Position numbers and translations under genes: made by a program
Notes under the pieces: model-generated
What the model saw: only the letters and a program-made list of their open reading frames with translations
Databases searched by the model: none
Told to the model about the DNA's origin: nothing
Shown here: piece after piece, positions 117-35,375 of the stretch
Layout: the number at the start of each line of letters is the position of its first letter
Numbering within the stretch: position 1 is the stretch's first letter
From: Bacteroidota bacterium
GTDB lineage: Bacteria > Bacteroidota > Bacteroidia > B-17B0 > Aurantibacillaceae
Direction of reading: 5' to 3'
Length of the DNA: 35,375 nt
Assembly: GCA_013697245.1 (NCBI GenBank)
Contig: JACCXH010000064.1
Span: 1 to 35,375 of the forward strand

Positions 117-143
117 ACCCTAATTAACATTTACAAAACAATA

Positions 144-722
144 ATGTACCGTGGCATTAGGGGTACTTTTATTTACGCATGCGATAAAGATCTTCGTGAT
201 TATTTAAAAAAACATGTTTCAACTTATAAAAAAGAAATTCCTTTCAGAATACTGAGATTCGATGAAGTGAAACCATATGTAAATTCAGTTCCTTTAGTTG
301 ATATCTCTGCCGCAGCAGGAAATTTCAGTAATTTACAAAAACATTCAGAATTTGAATGGATTGAATTGCCTTTTGGTGTCACGGCTAAAAAAGGTTATTT
401 TGTTTGTAAAGTTGAAGGTGAATCTATGAATAAAAGAATACCAAACGGTTCATACTGTTTATTTCAACAAGATGAAGGAGGGAGTAGAAATAGTAAAATT
501 GTTTTAGTTGAACATACAAAGTTTCAAGAATCAGAATTTGGCTCCCGCTACACAGTCAAAGAATATCGAAGTCATAAAAGTGTTGAAACCGATCAATGGA
601 GCCATAAAGCAATAACTTTAAAACCATTATCGACTGATTCTGCATACCAAAGTATTGAATTATCGGAAAGTGAATTAGAGAGTTTAAAAGTAATCGGCAT
701 TTTCGAAAAGGTTTTGGTATAA
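144..722 (+). CDS. LexA/S24-type peptidase domain protein, probable 3' remnant of a DUF2075 helicase gene
   Basis: Residues about 80-192 match the S24/LexA autoprotease domain. EGESM carries a candidate nucleophile Ser94 and YTVKEY carries the general-base Lys139. An Ala58-Gly59 pair in an AAAG context lies 35 residues before Ser94, close to the spacing in LexA between its cleaved Ala-Gly and its serine. Residues 1-25 (YRGIRGTFIYACDKDLRDYL) resemble the C-terminal motif of DUF2075/Schlafen-like helicases (xLxTRGMKGCYVYxxDxxL). The likeness continues in frame upstream of the ATG (INIYKTI) to a TGA at 114-116. The ORF therefore looks like the tail of a longer helicase-S24 protein whose front is lost or lies beyond a nonsense codon. 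It may still make a 192-residue protein from the ATG at 144. It converges on the CDF transporter gene. The S24 assignment is fairly sure; the remnant reading is inference. Confidence 0.65.
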   Translation: MYRGIRGTFIYACDKDLRDYLKKHVSTYKKEIPFRILRFDEVKPYVNSVPLVDISAAAGNFSNLQKHSEFEWIELPFGVTAKKGYFVCKVEGESMNKRIPNGSYCLFQQDEGGSRNSKIVLVEHTKFQESEFGSRYTVKEYRSHKSVETDQWSHKAITLKPLSTDSAYQSIELSESELESLKVIGIFEKVLV

Positions 723-5730: not shown

Positions 5731-8700
5731 TTAAAAAAGATTGTCTTTTATTATATTTTTCGGAACTAATTTATGAATATTAATTGTAAAACGAACAGTA
5801 TTAATACCTCTTACATTATTTAATTCTAAAGTTTTTTTAATATCACTGTTGTATAAAAATGGAATATAAACATCAACTATATCTTTTACGATAGGTATAT
5901 TTATACCAAGGTCCCATAAAAAAGGGTCTGTGTTCAAAGCTCTTCCATCACAAAAAGCAATATCTACAAATATTTTAATTGGCAAAATAAAAATAGTTGG
6001 CGATTTTAAATTAGCCGATACCAGCCATTCAGGTGATTGGCCTAGAGGTGTCCATACTTTTAATGCACCGTCCACATCGGCAAACTGGCTAAAACCAAAG
6101 CCGCTATATTCGTTACGGGCAATAAAATTACTCTCAAATAAATAATCCTGGTAGCCGCTGTAGCCGCTTGACCTAAAAGCATAGTAACTACGTTCAGCAT
6201 ACGAACCGGCGAGAAAAGTACCGGCAAATAACCTTACATCAATAAATTGTTTTTTGGATAAAGTAATTTGATAATTTAGTGTAGCCGAAATTTTTGCCAT
6301 GCTTGCACTATGCTGCAAATTTACATTTAGAACAAAAGGATTTATAATTCTTTTATTATTTAAATTATAATTTAATTGGTTTACAAAAGAGTACGTATTT
6401 TTTTTAACCGGTGCGCTGCTTATAAATGTATTGAACGACGTATTTAAACTATCTGTAAATAAATTATTGTTGGTGTAGGATATATATTGGTGAATGGGGC
6501 TCGTCGCATTTTTCTTTTTAAACTCAAACTGCAGGTAAGGCGAGAATTTATAAAAATTAAAAACCAGGTTTTTATAATTGGTACCATTTGCCTGGTTATT
6601 TAGTTCTGTATTATAATAATCGTAAGCGAATGATTTTGCCTTTGTGCCAAAAGTAATTTGTTGAAAGATCTTTTTTGGATAAAAATTAATGTTAAATTCG
6701 GCAAAACCAACGGGGTTTTTGGTTTTAAAAGCATACATGGGTGTTATTGCAAATTCGAACCGGCGTTGATACAAACCATAATTGTGAATGGATGCGCCTG
6801 CCATAAAACCATTATAATAATTTGCGCCAACAAGCGGCAAATAATTAATCTGAATTTTAGTAGGATTTTCATATTTGGTTAAAAAATTAAATTGCAGCGG
6901 TTTTCTTTTTTTGAAAAAACCTTTTGCGCGAATATAATTATTTCTGCGATTAATATCCGGCATTCTATCCATTCCATCTATTTTAAAATATTCCACATCT
7001 GCCGGTGGAAACTCAATAGTTTTCTCGCCTTCAAAGCCATTGTACCAAATAAGGCCTACCGATTTTTTATCTTTAAAGCCATAAATATTCAACGGCGTTG
7101 CAACACCTGTTTTATTTTTTATTTTTATTTGAAAACTTCCGTCCTTATTTTTTTTAAGGCTTTTTATTTTATAATCGATCTTATCAGTAGTTGAAATTAA
7201 ATTTCCGGCGAACCAATTCAGATCTAATCCACTAAAAAAATTCAAAGTTTTTGCAAGGTCTTTTGGCGAAGGGTGTTTAAATTTAAATTGTTCGTAATAG
7301 AACTTCATGGCTTTATCCAGGTTCTCTTCGCCCATGTAATCTGCCAGGTAATCAAAAATAGCCGAGGTTTTACTATATACAATACTTCCATAATTAAATT
7401 CTGTAAAATCCTGTGAAGGAATATCCAAAGTCTGGTCCGTTCTTGATTTAGCGGCAATAAAATAAGCCATTTCTTTTTCGCGCCAGTACTCAACTTTATT
7501 TACACCAAATAAATTTAAATTCTCGTCAATACCAATAAGATCGGATATTTTTTTCTCGGGATATTTTGCGCGCATGTAACGCATCTCGTAAAACGAATTT
7601 AATCCCTCATCCATGTGGGGATGATCGCGCTCATTGCTTCCTAATATGCCATAGAACCAATTGTGGCCTACTTCATGAGCAATTGTTACATCAAGATCAA
7701 ACTCGTTGCTCATATCACCAATAACGGTAATGTTCGGGTACTCCATGCCGCCACCGGCCATAATAGTTCCGTCAATTGCGGTGACGTGATTGTAGGGATA
7801 ATCACCATTTAAATATGAATAAAAAATGGTTGACTCGTTCACATAAGTGATTGCGTTTTTCCATAGATTAAAATTTTTGTTAGTGAAATAGACCCAGGTA
7901 TCTACTGTTCTTTTATTTCCTGGCAATTCAATTTGATCGTGCAAAACATTAAAACGTTTATCGGCAAACCAGGCAAAATCATGCACCCTGAATTGTTTAA
8001 AGCGAATTGTTTTTGTTTCTTTTGAAGAAGCAGGAAACTCCATGTCTTTGGCACGGTAATCTTGTTTGTCGAGGCGATCTAAAGTTTGTTTTACATTTTC
8101 ATTTAAAAAGTACTCCTCTTCATCCGCTTCTATCCTATCGCCGGTAGCAGATAATAAATAATTTTTTGGCAAAGTTATTTTTACATCAAAACTTCCAAAT
8201 TCGCTATAAAATTCCCCTTGATCTAAATAGGGCATTTGATGCCAGCCTTCATTATCAAACACAGCCGGCTTTGGATACCACTGCGTAATAAAGTAGGCTT
8301 GCTGTGTATGGCCTAATCTCGAAAATTTAGCATCCGGGATCTTTACAAAAAAAGGAGTCGTAATTAAAATTGTATCTAACGATCTTAATGGTTCATTTAA
8401 AATAAGTTTACAGATATCAATATTCTCTTTGTCAAGTTCCCATTGTATTTGTTTGCCGTTTACTTTAAAATTCAAACTATCAACAAAACCTCTTTCTTCG
8501 GGCTTAGAAAAATAAAAGTCTGTTTTTTTGTGTAAAAGTAACTGGGCTGCAAGCGCCGTTGAATGATCTTTATAGGCATTGGGCCATAAATGAAAATAAA
8601 TATAACTTAACGATTGGTTGGAGTTATTGATGTATTGAATTTCTTCTGTGGCACGCAAAGTATGCGTAACATCGTTTAAGTTTACCGCAATTTTATAATT

Positions 8701-33834: not shown

Positions 33835-35375
33835 TTAATATTTAATACAAGGCATTAAAGCAACGTTTCTTGGTCTTGATGCACTTATCATACCTTGAGC
33901 TGTAGGGCCCGAATAAACCACCCAGTTACCCACCGGCGAAGCGGCATTACCGCGCCCCCAATAAGCATTTGGAATTGATCCAACTGTTGCCGTTGGCCAT
34001 GTATCAGAAAGAGTTGTAGCTGCATTGTCCATCGAAAAATCGGTATCCTGTGCTGCCGCACCACCAGTATCATCATGAACAAGTGGCGATGGGCTTTGCC
34101 ATGTTCCAATCACACGACCGGGATCAGAACCTTTACCATTATCATAACCTCTAATGAATTCACCTCTTAAATCGGGTAAATTAAAAGTTGTAGTGCCATT
34201 ACCCGCGCCATAAGTAATACCAATAGCAGCAAATAATTCAGCGTATGTTGTTCTGTTTACGGCAGCGCCATTACATTCTAAATAACCGTTTGGAGCTGTT
34301 GTGTTTGCAAAGTATTGAACTGTGCCTGCAGGATTATTTGCGCAATCCCATTTGGTGCCATCCCAATAATAAAAGCCTAAAAGATTAGTGTCGTATACCT
34401 GCACGCCAGCCACTGGCGCAACAATCGCTTTTCTTTGTGCGCTTGTCATACGAGGCATTGCAAATCCATTAGCAGTACTTACTACATCTAAATATGCCTG
34501 TGGGGCAGTTGTACCAACTCCAACAAAACCTCCATAGGGGTTAATTGCCAAAACACCTGTAGTTGCAACATTTTCTATTGCAGGCGGCGCACTACCGGCA
34601 GGTGTATAAAATTGGATAACTCCATTCGTATTCGCATCAAATGTAATGTGGGAGTTAGAATTGTTATCGTAAATTCTTAAACTATTGTCAGTATATGGTT
34701 TTATATTATCTGCAAAAATAATTGTAGCAGAGCGCCCAACCCCAAAATTACTTGGTGCAAAAACATTATCAGCTACGTAAGCATCGCCATTTAAAACATC
34801 AAATTTTCCACGAGGTGCATTTGTCCCAACACCTACATATCCATTGCCTTTAGCAGTTAATACCGGAAGGCCGGCTACACCTTGCACACCTGTTGATGCG
34901 TCAAAAATAGTATTGCTGGCTGCGGTTCCCAAAATTTTAACCATTAAACCATCAGCGTTACCTAAAACACTTTGATTATAAAACGACCCAACATAACCAC
35001 TATTATTAAGTCGCCAAAATAAAGAAGCTCCTCCACCGGCACTACTATTAGCCCCTTGACCATCAGAGCCAATCGTATTTACAAAAGCGCCTTGCATATT
35101 ATGAAAGAGTCCGGAATTTTCAAACCTGGCCTGTTCAATATTATTTGTTCTAAAAACCAAGGCAACATTATCTGTAGTGCCCAAAAAATTTGTTGAAGGA
35201 AGTGTGCCTGCATTCCCCAACAAGTTCCAAAATGTACCATTGGTAGGGGTCCAACTTGTACCATTAAATTGTAAAATTTGTCCGGTGGTTGGTGTTATTG
35301 CAGCCACAGGTGTTGTTTGCAAACCAACAACGGTTAATGCCGGGTATGTTCCGCTTACATCATTTGAACCCGGTG
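33835..35375 (-). CDS. Phage tail-collar domain protein (partial, 5' end outside the window)
   Basis: The reading frame stays open to the window edge. Codons before the first possible start (TTG 35322) translate to DVSGTYPALTVVGLQTTPV, a typical repeat of Bacteroidota fibre proteins, so the gene continues beyond 35375. The visible 513 residues contain that repeat, a long serine/asparagine/glycine-rich shaft, and then the tail-collar domain (PF07484 type) in the last 165 residues: GYLECNGAAVNRTTYAELFAAIG, FNLPDLRGEFIRGYDNG, and the ending ASRPRNVALMPCIKY. There is no T9SS sorting domain at the C terminus. No other phage genes are present, so it is probably a chromosomal adhesin or fibre. The function is inference. 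Confidence 0.85.
   Translation of the reverse strand, partial: PGSNDVSGTYPALTVVGLQTTPVAAITPTTGQILQFNGTSWTPTNGTFWNLLGNAGTLPSTNFLGTTDNVALVFRTNNIEQARFENSGLFHNMQGAFVNTIGSDGQGANSSAGGGASLFWRLNNSGYVGSFYNQSVLGNADGLMVKILGTAASNTIFDASTGVQGVAGLPVLTAKGNGYVGVGTNAPRGKFDVLNGDAYVADNVFAPSNFGVGRSATIIFADNIKPYTDNSLRIYDNNSNSHITFDANTNGVIQFYTPAGSAPPAIENVATTGVLAINPYGGFVGVGTTAPQAYLDVVSTANGFAMPRMTSAQRKAIVAPVAGVQVYDTNLLGFYYWDGTKWDCANNPAGTVQYFANTTAPNGYLECNGAAVNRTTYAELFAAIGITYGAGNGTTTFNLPDLRGEFIRGYDNGKGSDPGRVIGTWQSPSPLVHDDTGGAAAQDTDFSMDNAATTLSDTWPTATVGSIPNAYWGRGNAASPVGNWVVYSGPTAQGMISASRPRNVALMPCIKY

Follow-up and report, generated by a model that had tools for sequence, protein, structure and literature searches.

The window considered here is a 35,375-nucleotide stretch that forms the start of contig C32 in a 4.44 Mb, 74-contig genome. 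Near its left end lies an open frame (117–722, + strand; 192 amino acids from the ATG at 144) with a LexA-like peptidase S24 domain, which raises the question of what protein this frame was once part of and what a domain of this type might do there. The window copy is a dead fragment of a family that couples a nuclease-helicase, apparently of restriction type, to a tail like that of LexA. The features concerned are as follows.

1–120, + strand: end of a multicopy mobile element, with the last 37 codons (3–113) of the element frame and its stop TGA (114–116).
121–126, + strand: TAATTA, the native target where the element joins the gene; the same TAATTA is found in the intact genes of the same-genus loci L025 and L026.
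121–722, + strand: what is left, at the 3' end, of a gene with GIY-YIG, SLFN-g3 helicase and S24 domains (roughly 200 codons out of ~745), from blastn and protein alignment to intact homologues.
123–185, + strand: C-terminal end of the helicase domain (INIYKTIMYRGIRGTFIYAC...), from alignment to intact homologues and from PF09848 positions 333–354 (E 0.15) and 331–354, both below the cut-off.
294–698, + strand: peptidase S24 (LexA-like) domain, PF00717 at residues 60–194 of P0001 (31.8 bits vs a cut-off of 23.3); the modelled structure of P0002, a homologue with 87% identity, shows a LexA fold here.
315–320, + strand: predicted Ala-Gly cleavage site (Ala58-Gly59 of the ATG-started frame), invariant in 7/7 aligned proteins; in the fused full-length rows, Ala in 75/75 and Gly in 74/75.
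423–425, + strand: predicted catalytic Ser codon (Ser94), invariant in 7/7 aligned proteins and in 75/75 rows.
558–560, + strand: predicted catalytic Lys codon (Lys139), invariant in 7/7 aligned proteins and in 75/75 rows.

From base 121 onwards, the window aligned with bases 8972–9578 of L025 over 607 nt at 85.7% identity (blastn), the alignment beginning at window base 121 itself, and the encoded tail shared 87% amino acid identity with the C-terminus of a 745-aa frame. An earlier sequence-only reading had proposed that only the tail of a broken helicase gene was left here, and this was borne out: the frame aligned to the last part of the 745-aa frame, and the gene was cut by a mobile element. 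The S24 residues that this reading had named as kept, Ala58-Gly59, Ser94 and Lys139 (A67, G68, S103 and K148 in the 201-aa read-out P0001), were all present, in columns invariant across the seven aligned proteins. The same reading had traced a helicase C-terminus back to a TGA at 114–116. The helicase end was upheld by the alignment to intact homologues; the gene sequence, however, starts at 121 rather than at 117 or the ATG, and the TGA is the stop of the element. Residues 2–23 of P0001 matched the last 22 of the 354 positions of the SLFN-g3/DUF2075 model PF09848 at 11.8 bits, and the assignment of the helicase end is firm because of the alignment to intact homologues, the weak profile match being insufficient by itself. 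Neither P0001 nor P0002 matched an NCBIfam family at E 0.001.

The left border of the remnant is formed by sequence that recurs in this genome. Bases 1–116 of the window matched ten places in its own genome at 100%, the match being 115 bases long in two of these. Every one of the ten is a contig end, that of the window itself among them. The eight element copies compared all read ...GAGTGAACCC, then TANNTA, and then diverged. A 72% copy of the element end was located inside contig C13, where it encodes a related C-terminus downstream of a frame that, by reading of the sequence and not from a tool, may be tyrosine-recombinase-like. The element-related frame P0016 had no Pfam or NCBIfam match, and the element body was not found in the 74-contig assembly. 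As the alignment with L025 starts at 121 and TAATTA is kept in two intact genes of the same genus, TAATTA is the site at which the gene was joined by the mobile element. The idea that the TGA at 114–116 arose by nonsense mutation within the helicase gene was rejected, because the multicopy element end and the C13 copy identify it as the element's own stop.

The rest of the gene, about 542 residues, was not found in the assembly of this genome: the search with the helicase N-terminus was negative, and the only other match to the helicase query was a 62-residue P-loop stretch (38%, E 9.7e-4). The MazG-like gene that accompanies intact copies was not found in the assembly either, with the same search positive in 4/4 comparison genomes. 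The missing half was thus looked for elsewhere in the 74 contigs and not found; the upstream part is absent from the assembly either by deletion or by assembly loss. Between the window tail and L025, dN/dS was 0.09 over 199 codons (Nei-Gojobori, custom script) with no stops, and the break of the gene is therefore recent relative to the divergence of the two. The open frame without internal stop and the low dN/dS to L025 would also suit a functional stand-alone UmuD-like S24 protein of 192 amino acids that had merely lost its helicase. This is highly improbable, given that the low ratio mostly reflects the time before insertion, that the frame starts within the helicase domain and that a check for relatives with an intact 192-aa protein from the same ATG found none among 80 loci.

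Intact versions were found elsewhere. In 100 genomes searched (own included), six others held long fused frames, five with the SLFN-g3 helicase (745, 733, 734, 724 and 745 aa) and one with another enzyme (1154 aa); the eighth match was a 44-aa frame near a contig end. The expectation that an intact version would join a DUF2075 helicase to an S24 domain was thus confirmed by full-length fused proteins in other genomes. In the five SLFN-g3 fusions (~730 aa), Pfam recognised GIY-YIG (PF01541), helicase (PF09848) and S24 (PF00717) domains in a single frame, the third, N-terminal GIY-YIG domain being beyond what the window sequence shows. PF01541 scored 22.6, 27.7, 29.1 and 25.5 bits in four of the five, at or over the cut-off of 22.6, and 15.3 bits in P0006, below it; PF09848 scored 198.5 bits in the intact P0002 against a cut-off of 24. 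The nuclease core domain of bacterial Schlafen tRNase systems was not among the Pfam matches (E 0.1 or better, at most 25 listed per protein) of the five intact homologues. A LexA-type N-terminal winged helix was not present in them, the corresponding part being GIY-YIG and the SLFN-g3 helicase. No description of the GIY-YIG/SLFN-g3/S24 fusion was found among the entries listed from the open-access literature searched, a scope outside which most subscription papers fall.

A scan of 84,980 species genomes yielded 237 relatives, of which the best 80 were kept as loci. Judged by record titles, these were mostly from Bacteroidota; three were labelled as Rhizobium, Alphaproteobacteria and Gammaproteobacteria metagenome bins, for which mis-binning is possible. 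A long frame was held by 75 of the best 80, with 74 aligning to the full-length protein and L102 matching it piece for piece. Of the five short-frame loci, L060, L074 and L093 either reach a contig end or are no more than a few dozen bases away from one, and in L082 and L095 the upstream helicase is in pieces or only its end is found. The conservation alignment comprised 75 rows, namely the 74 loci and P0002 (the same protein as in L036), with L102 left out owing to its uncertain start. Each of the GIY-YIG residues Y40, Y51, R61, H65 and E95 was present in 75/75 rows, as were the Walker A residue K199 and the Walker B residue E293 of the helicase, with Walker B D292 in 74/75. Conservation of the S24 residues was equally high (A610, S646 and K691 in 75/75; G611 in 74/75), a single row having no Gly at the predicted cleavage position. 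The fused gene is also broken in L155 (genome G410), by an in-frame stop, and in L095, where it is in pieces, which indicates that the gene decays repeatedly.

The AlphaFold2 model of P0002, built from a 54-row alignment, had a mean pLDDT of 83.9 and a pTM of 0.72. Values below 50 were confined to residues 1–5 and 608–620; the latter stretch includes the Ala-Gly site and, in this model, might be consistent with a mobile cleavage loop. Residues 595–744 resembled Thermotoga LexA 3k2z (Z 12.7, rmsd 2.4, 120 aligned), and the helicase resembled DSH9 (Z 15.7, rmsd 4.4, 278), UvrD (15.3, 3.9, 302) and SLFN11 (14.1, 5.0, 277). All 50 rows listed by Foldseek were helicases or complexes with them, and the LexA rows came from a second comparison (VIA); a GIY-YIG structure was not found among the fold-match rows listed. 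When the S24 profile was compared with PDB sequences, the only match was again Thermotoga LexA 3k2z (E 4.4e-4), also the best LexA row by fold.

The intact gene is accompanied by a regular partner. A MazG-like gene (PF12643) was located within 1.5 kb upstream of the fused gene in 75/75 loci, and in 63 of these the match ended one base into the start codon of the fused gene (ATGA-type overlap), as seen directly in L025 at 7339–7342. A gap of 618 bp separates the two genes in L041; the gap of 694 in L102 is a product of the chosen start, the two being adjacent there. The nearest PDB relative of the MazG-like protein was dCTP pyrophosphatase 1 (E 4.1e-18), and the human enzyme has a specificity for 5-methyl-dCTP above that for dCTP, according to the available text of PMC4491611. 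MazG-like and NUDIX queries had 0 matches in 36 control stretches of 7 kb. The MazG-like gene was also found beside relatives without S24 (L152, L153 and L154), which suggests that S24 is not essential to the core system. The S24-less protein P0017 scored 20.2 bits with PF01541, below the cut-off of 22.6. A Lactiplantibacillus plasmid carries a pyrophosphohydrolase, a DEAD helicase, MazG and a GIY-YIG helicase with no S24 match, and the 11.6 kb of the Paenibacillus relative L150 contain no match to S24 or to the MazG-like gene. L143 (G159) was rejected as an S24-less form, being a 250-codon fragment with a stop, and was not counted.

The same S24 subtype was found on other enzymes. In the phylum sample, it occurred with any partner in 18/395 genomes at E 1e-10, comprising eight long GIY-type proteins, one interrupted GIY-type (G410), five PLDc-helicase-DUF3427 proteins, two HsdR-like proteins, one copy truncated where its contig stops, and the window. 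The class sample shares genomes with the phylum sample, and the subtype occurred there in 32/395 genomes at the same threshold; 19 of these were GIY-type, as judged from the helicase and the frame length with the GIY-YIG part outside the stretch examined, and the others were ten PLDc-DUF3427 proteins, a frame of 547 aa with helicase and S24, a match that was only partial, and the window. The PLDc-helicase-DUF3427-S24 form was present in 12 genomes across the two samples, with a NUDIX gene immediately upstream in 6/6 tested; the nearest named NCBIfam models for the NUDIX protein include pyrimidine dNTP diphosphatase, all below the cut-off. The HsdR-like proteins (P0009 and P0010) combine HSDR_N, SWI2/SNF2 and T1R_D3-like domains with S24, and P0010 scored 191.4 bits with the NCBIfam model hsdR, which has a cut-off of 284.6 bits. 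These HsdR-like fusions lie at 7039–10584 of L161 and 4025–7567 of L162, each with a ~225-aa frame adjoining upstream that is HNH-like by reading. On a chromid-sized Halomonas plasmid, the helicase and S24 are in separate frames as deposited, with a MazG-like match downstream.

Ala, Gly, Ser and Lys likewise occupy the predicted cleavage and catalytic positions of those S24 copies from PLDc, HsdR-like and Halomonas proteins that were aligned or read. This bears on whether the S24 fold might serve dimerisation or RecA-filament binding without any proteolytic switching. S24 domains do dimerise, and cleavage in this family is a prediction; a purely structural domain, however, would not need these four residues, which are kept in 74–75 of the 75 rows and on the other enzymes as well, and we consider such a role very unlikely.

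A tree of the S24 domain was built from 37 GIY loci (every second of the 74), the window and eight further GIY-type sequences, 11 PLDc, two HsdR, the Halomonas piece and one repressor from the window's own genome. The sequences clustered by partner, with 3 label changes against a shuffled mean of 12.2. The tree was weakly resolved (14/58 inner branches starred, bootstrap not settled) and leaves the number of fusion origins unsettled. The tail query matched one plasmid record (Halomonas) and 0 phage records, and the full-length query matched 38 plasmid records and four phage records, the latter only in the helicase part. Carriage of the fusion by phages was rejected on these grounds. Two distant S24 matches, at 29%, were noted in viral contigs. 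In G018, of the same genus as the window, bases 1726–8740 of L030 hold MazG, an SLFN-g3 helicase with another N-terminus, NUDIX and PLDc-DUF3427-S24 in one locus, possibly a single composite system.

The surroundings of the fused gene were compared with defence families. Flanking genes matched 167 PADLOC families (76 proteins) vs 7 in controls (70 proteins) at E 1e-10, a contrast that counts families, many of them redundant models, and not proteins; the first 25 of the 167 were listed. The test proteins were drawn at random, with those of at least 900 aa left out, from 112 proteins that directly neighbour the fused gene in 56 loci, each at least 12 kb long. The controls came from 36 arbitrary stretches of nine single-contig genomes, five of which carry S24 elsewhere. 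Among the enzymes themselves, PADLOC matches were weak for P0002 (best E 1.8e-9) and P0005 (1.1e-10), and the window protein had no match in PADLOC. The PLDc-DUF3427-S24 protein P0007 matched mREase_IV at E 6.6e-230 over residues 3–970. These data also bear on a housekeeping role, in which the nuclease-helicase would act in DNA repair, S24 would tie it to the damage response and MazG would sanitise damaged dNTPs. Both S24 and dNTP sanitation fit repair, and the fold lists are full of DNA and RNA helicases, UvrD and RecD2 among them. A repair enzyme nevertheless seems quite unlikely in view of the patchy presence of the S24 subtype in both genome samples, the many PADLOC families matched by the neighbours, and the occurrence of the same S24 on HsdR-like and type IV-like enzymes.

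We put the chances at about even that the window remnant and its intact family represent a restriction-type enzyme with an S24 self-cleavage switch. That the intact family may be a modification-dependent restriction enzyme is suggested only by the DUF3427 relatives and by the MazG and NUDIX partners, which by homology could use modified dCTP as a substrate; in the available text of PMC7159879, binding of modified DNA is predicted for DUF3427 on the basis of its relatives in SauUSI, a type IV enzyme. In the mechanism proposed, the helicase would track DNA and the GIY-YIG domain would cut it, while the MazG-like partner would remove modified dCTP from the dNTP pool, by which host DNA would not be mistaken for modified phage DNA. 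Host DNA damage, in the form of a RecA filament or of a stalled or self-targeting complex, would trigger self-cleavage of S24 at the Ala-Gly site, which lies some 45 residues past the helicase; the cut would end or destabilise the activity of the enzyme. The S24 fuse would then play, from within the enzyme, the part that ClpXP plays in the restriction alleviation of HsdR.

The off direction of this switch is preferred, tentatively and with less than even confidence, because the S24-less forms L152, L153 and L154 keep the same partner and because HsdR is removed by proteolysis when host DNA is at risk. HsdR is described as a known target of proteolytic restriction alleviation in the available text of PMC11109961 and PMC12707154. 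According to the former, as available, the SOS response was not needed for plasmid-induced EcoKI alleviation, and the link between RecA and S24 is therefore unsupported by the EcoKI case. Alternatively, S24 could switch the enzyme on: the fused protein would be an inactive pro-enzyme, and self-cleavage at Ala-Gly would set the nuclease-helicase free to degrade DNA once the cell is infected or damaged. The position of the cleavage site between the nuclease-helicase and the S24 core makes either direction possible, and proteases that activate pro-nucleases are established in defence, with trypsin-like or caspase partners in Hachiman, AVAST and Canu (available text of PMC12799240). The existence of S24-less relatives with the same partner gene suggests, however, that the enzyme probably works without release from S24. 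To our knowledge, HsdR and PLDc-DUF3427 enzymes normally carry no S24 domain, which also argues against activation by cleavage, and we regard an on switch as rather unlikely.

With off as the preferred direction, S24 could be a portable self-cleaving fuse added repeatedly to unrelated restriction nuclease-helicases, namely GIY-YIG/SLFN-g3, PLDc/DUF3427, HsdR and probably also an SLFN-g3 helicase whose N-terminus is of a different kind. The GIY-YIG/SLFN-g3 and PLDc/DUF3427 kinds are paired with dNTP pyrophosphohydrolases of two unrelated folds (MazG-like and NUDIX). These enzymes would sense host DNA damage and cut themselves off, with the dNTP pool being cleaned in parallel so that host DNA stays free of modification. 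This generalisation is possible, and we propose it at less than an even chance. The best-known way in which restriction enzymes are restrained on damaged or newly replicated self DNA is the action of ClpXP on HsdR of type I systems, and the S24 family responds to RecA filaments in LexA. If the proposal is true, an enzyme-borne protease would be a second, self-contained way to restrain restriction of the cell's own DNA, and an SOS sensor domain would be linked directly to defence enzymes without transcription.

Several known systems resemble the window family in part. LexA and UmuD share with it the S24 fold, the Ala-Gly site and the Ser-Lys pair, and carry an N-terminal DNA-binding winged helix or a short arm in place of the nuclease-helicase. 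SLFN-g3/DUF2075 helicases with GIY-YIG (PF09848 and PF01541) have the same core enzyme, to which the window family adds a C-terminal S24. In SauUSI and other PLDc-helicase-DUF3427 relatives, a nuclease and a helicase likewise occur with a dNTP-hydrolase partner, although both enzymes belong to families other than those seen in the window family, and an S24 tail is added in P0007. Alleviation of HsdR uses the external ClpXP, whereas in the S24 fusions the protease domain is within the enzyme. In Hachiman, AVAST and Canu, too, a defence nuclease is under the control of a protease, and Hachiman also includes a helicase (available text of PMC12799240); the protease of these systems is trypsin-like or a caspase, acts in trans and is activating, in contrast to the C-terminal S24 in the same frame in the window family. 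Neither S24 nor LexA occurs in the main text of PMC12799240.

Two further frames were noted in the window. A frame of ~80 codons at 725–966 lies downstream of the S24 remnant and runs into the end of an opposite-strand gene (897–1766); as P0008 (725–961), it was rejected as a recognisable gene remnant, having no Pfam match at E 0.01. At the far end, a frame on the − strand (33835–35373) runs off the window, and its C-terminus resembles, by reading, phage tail-collar domains.
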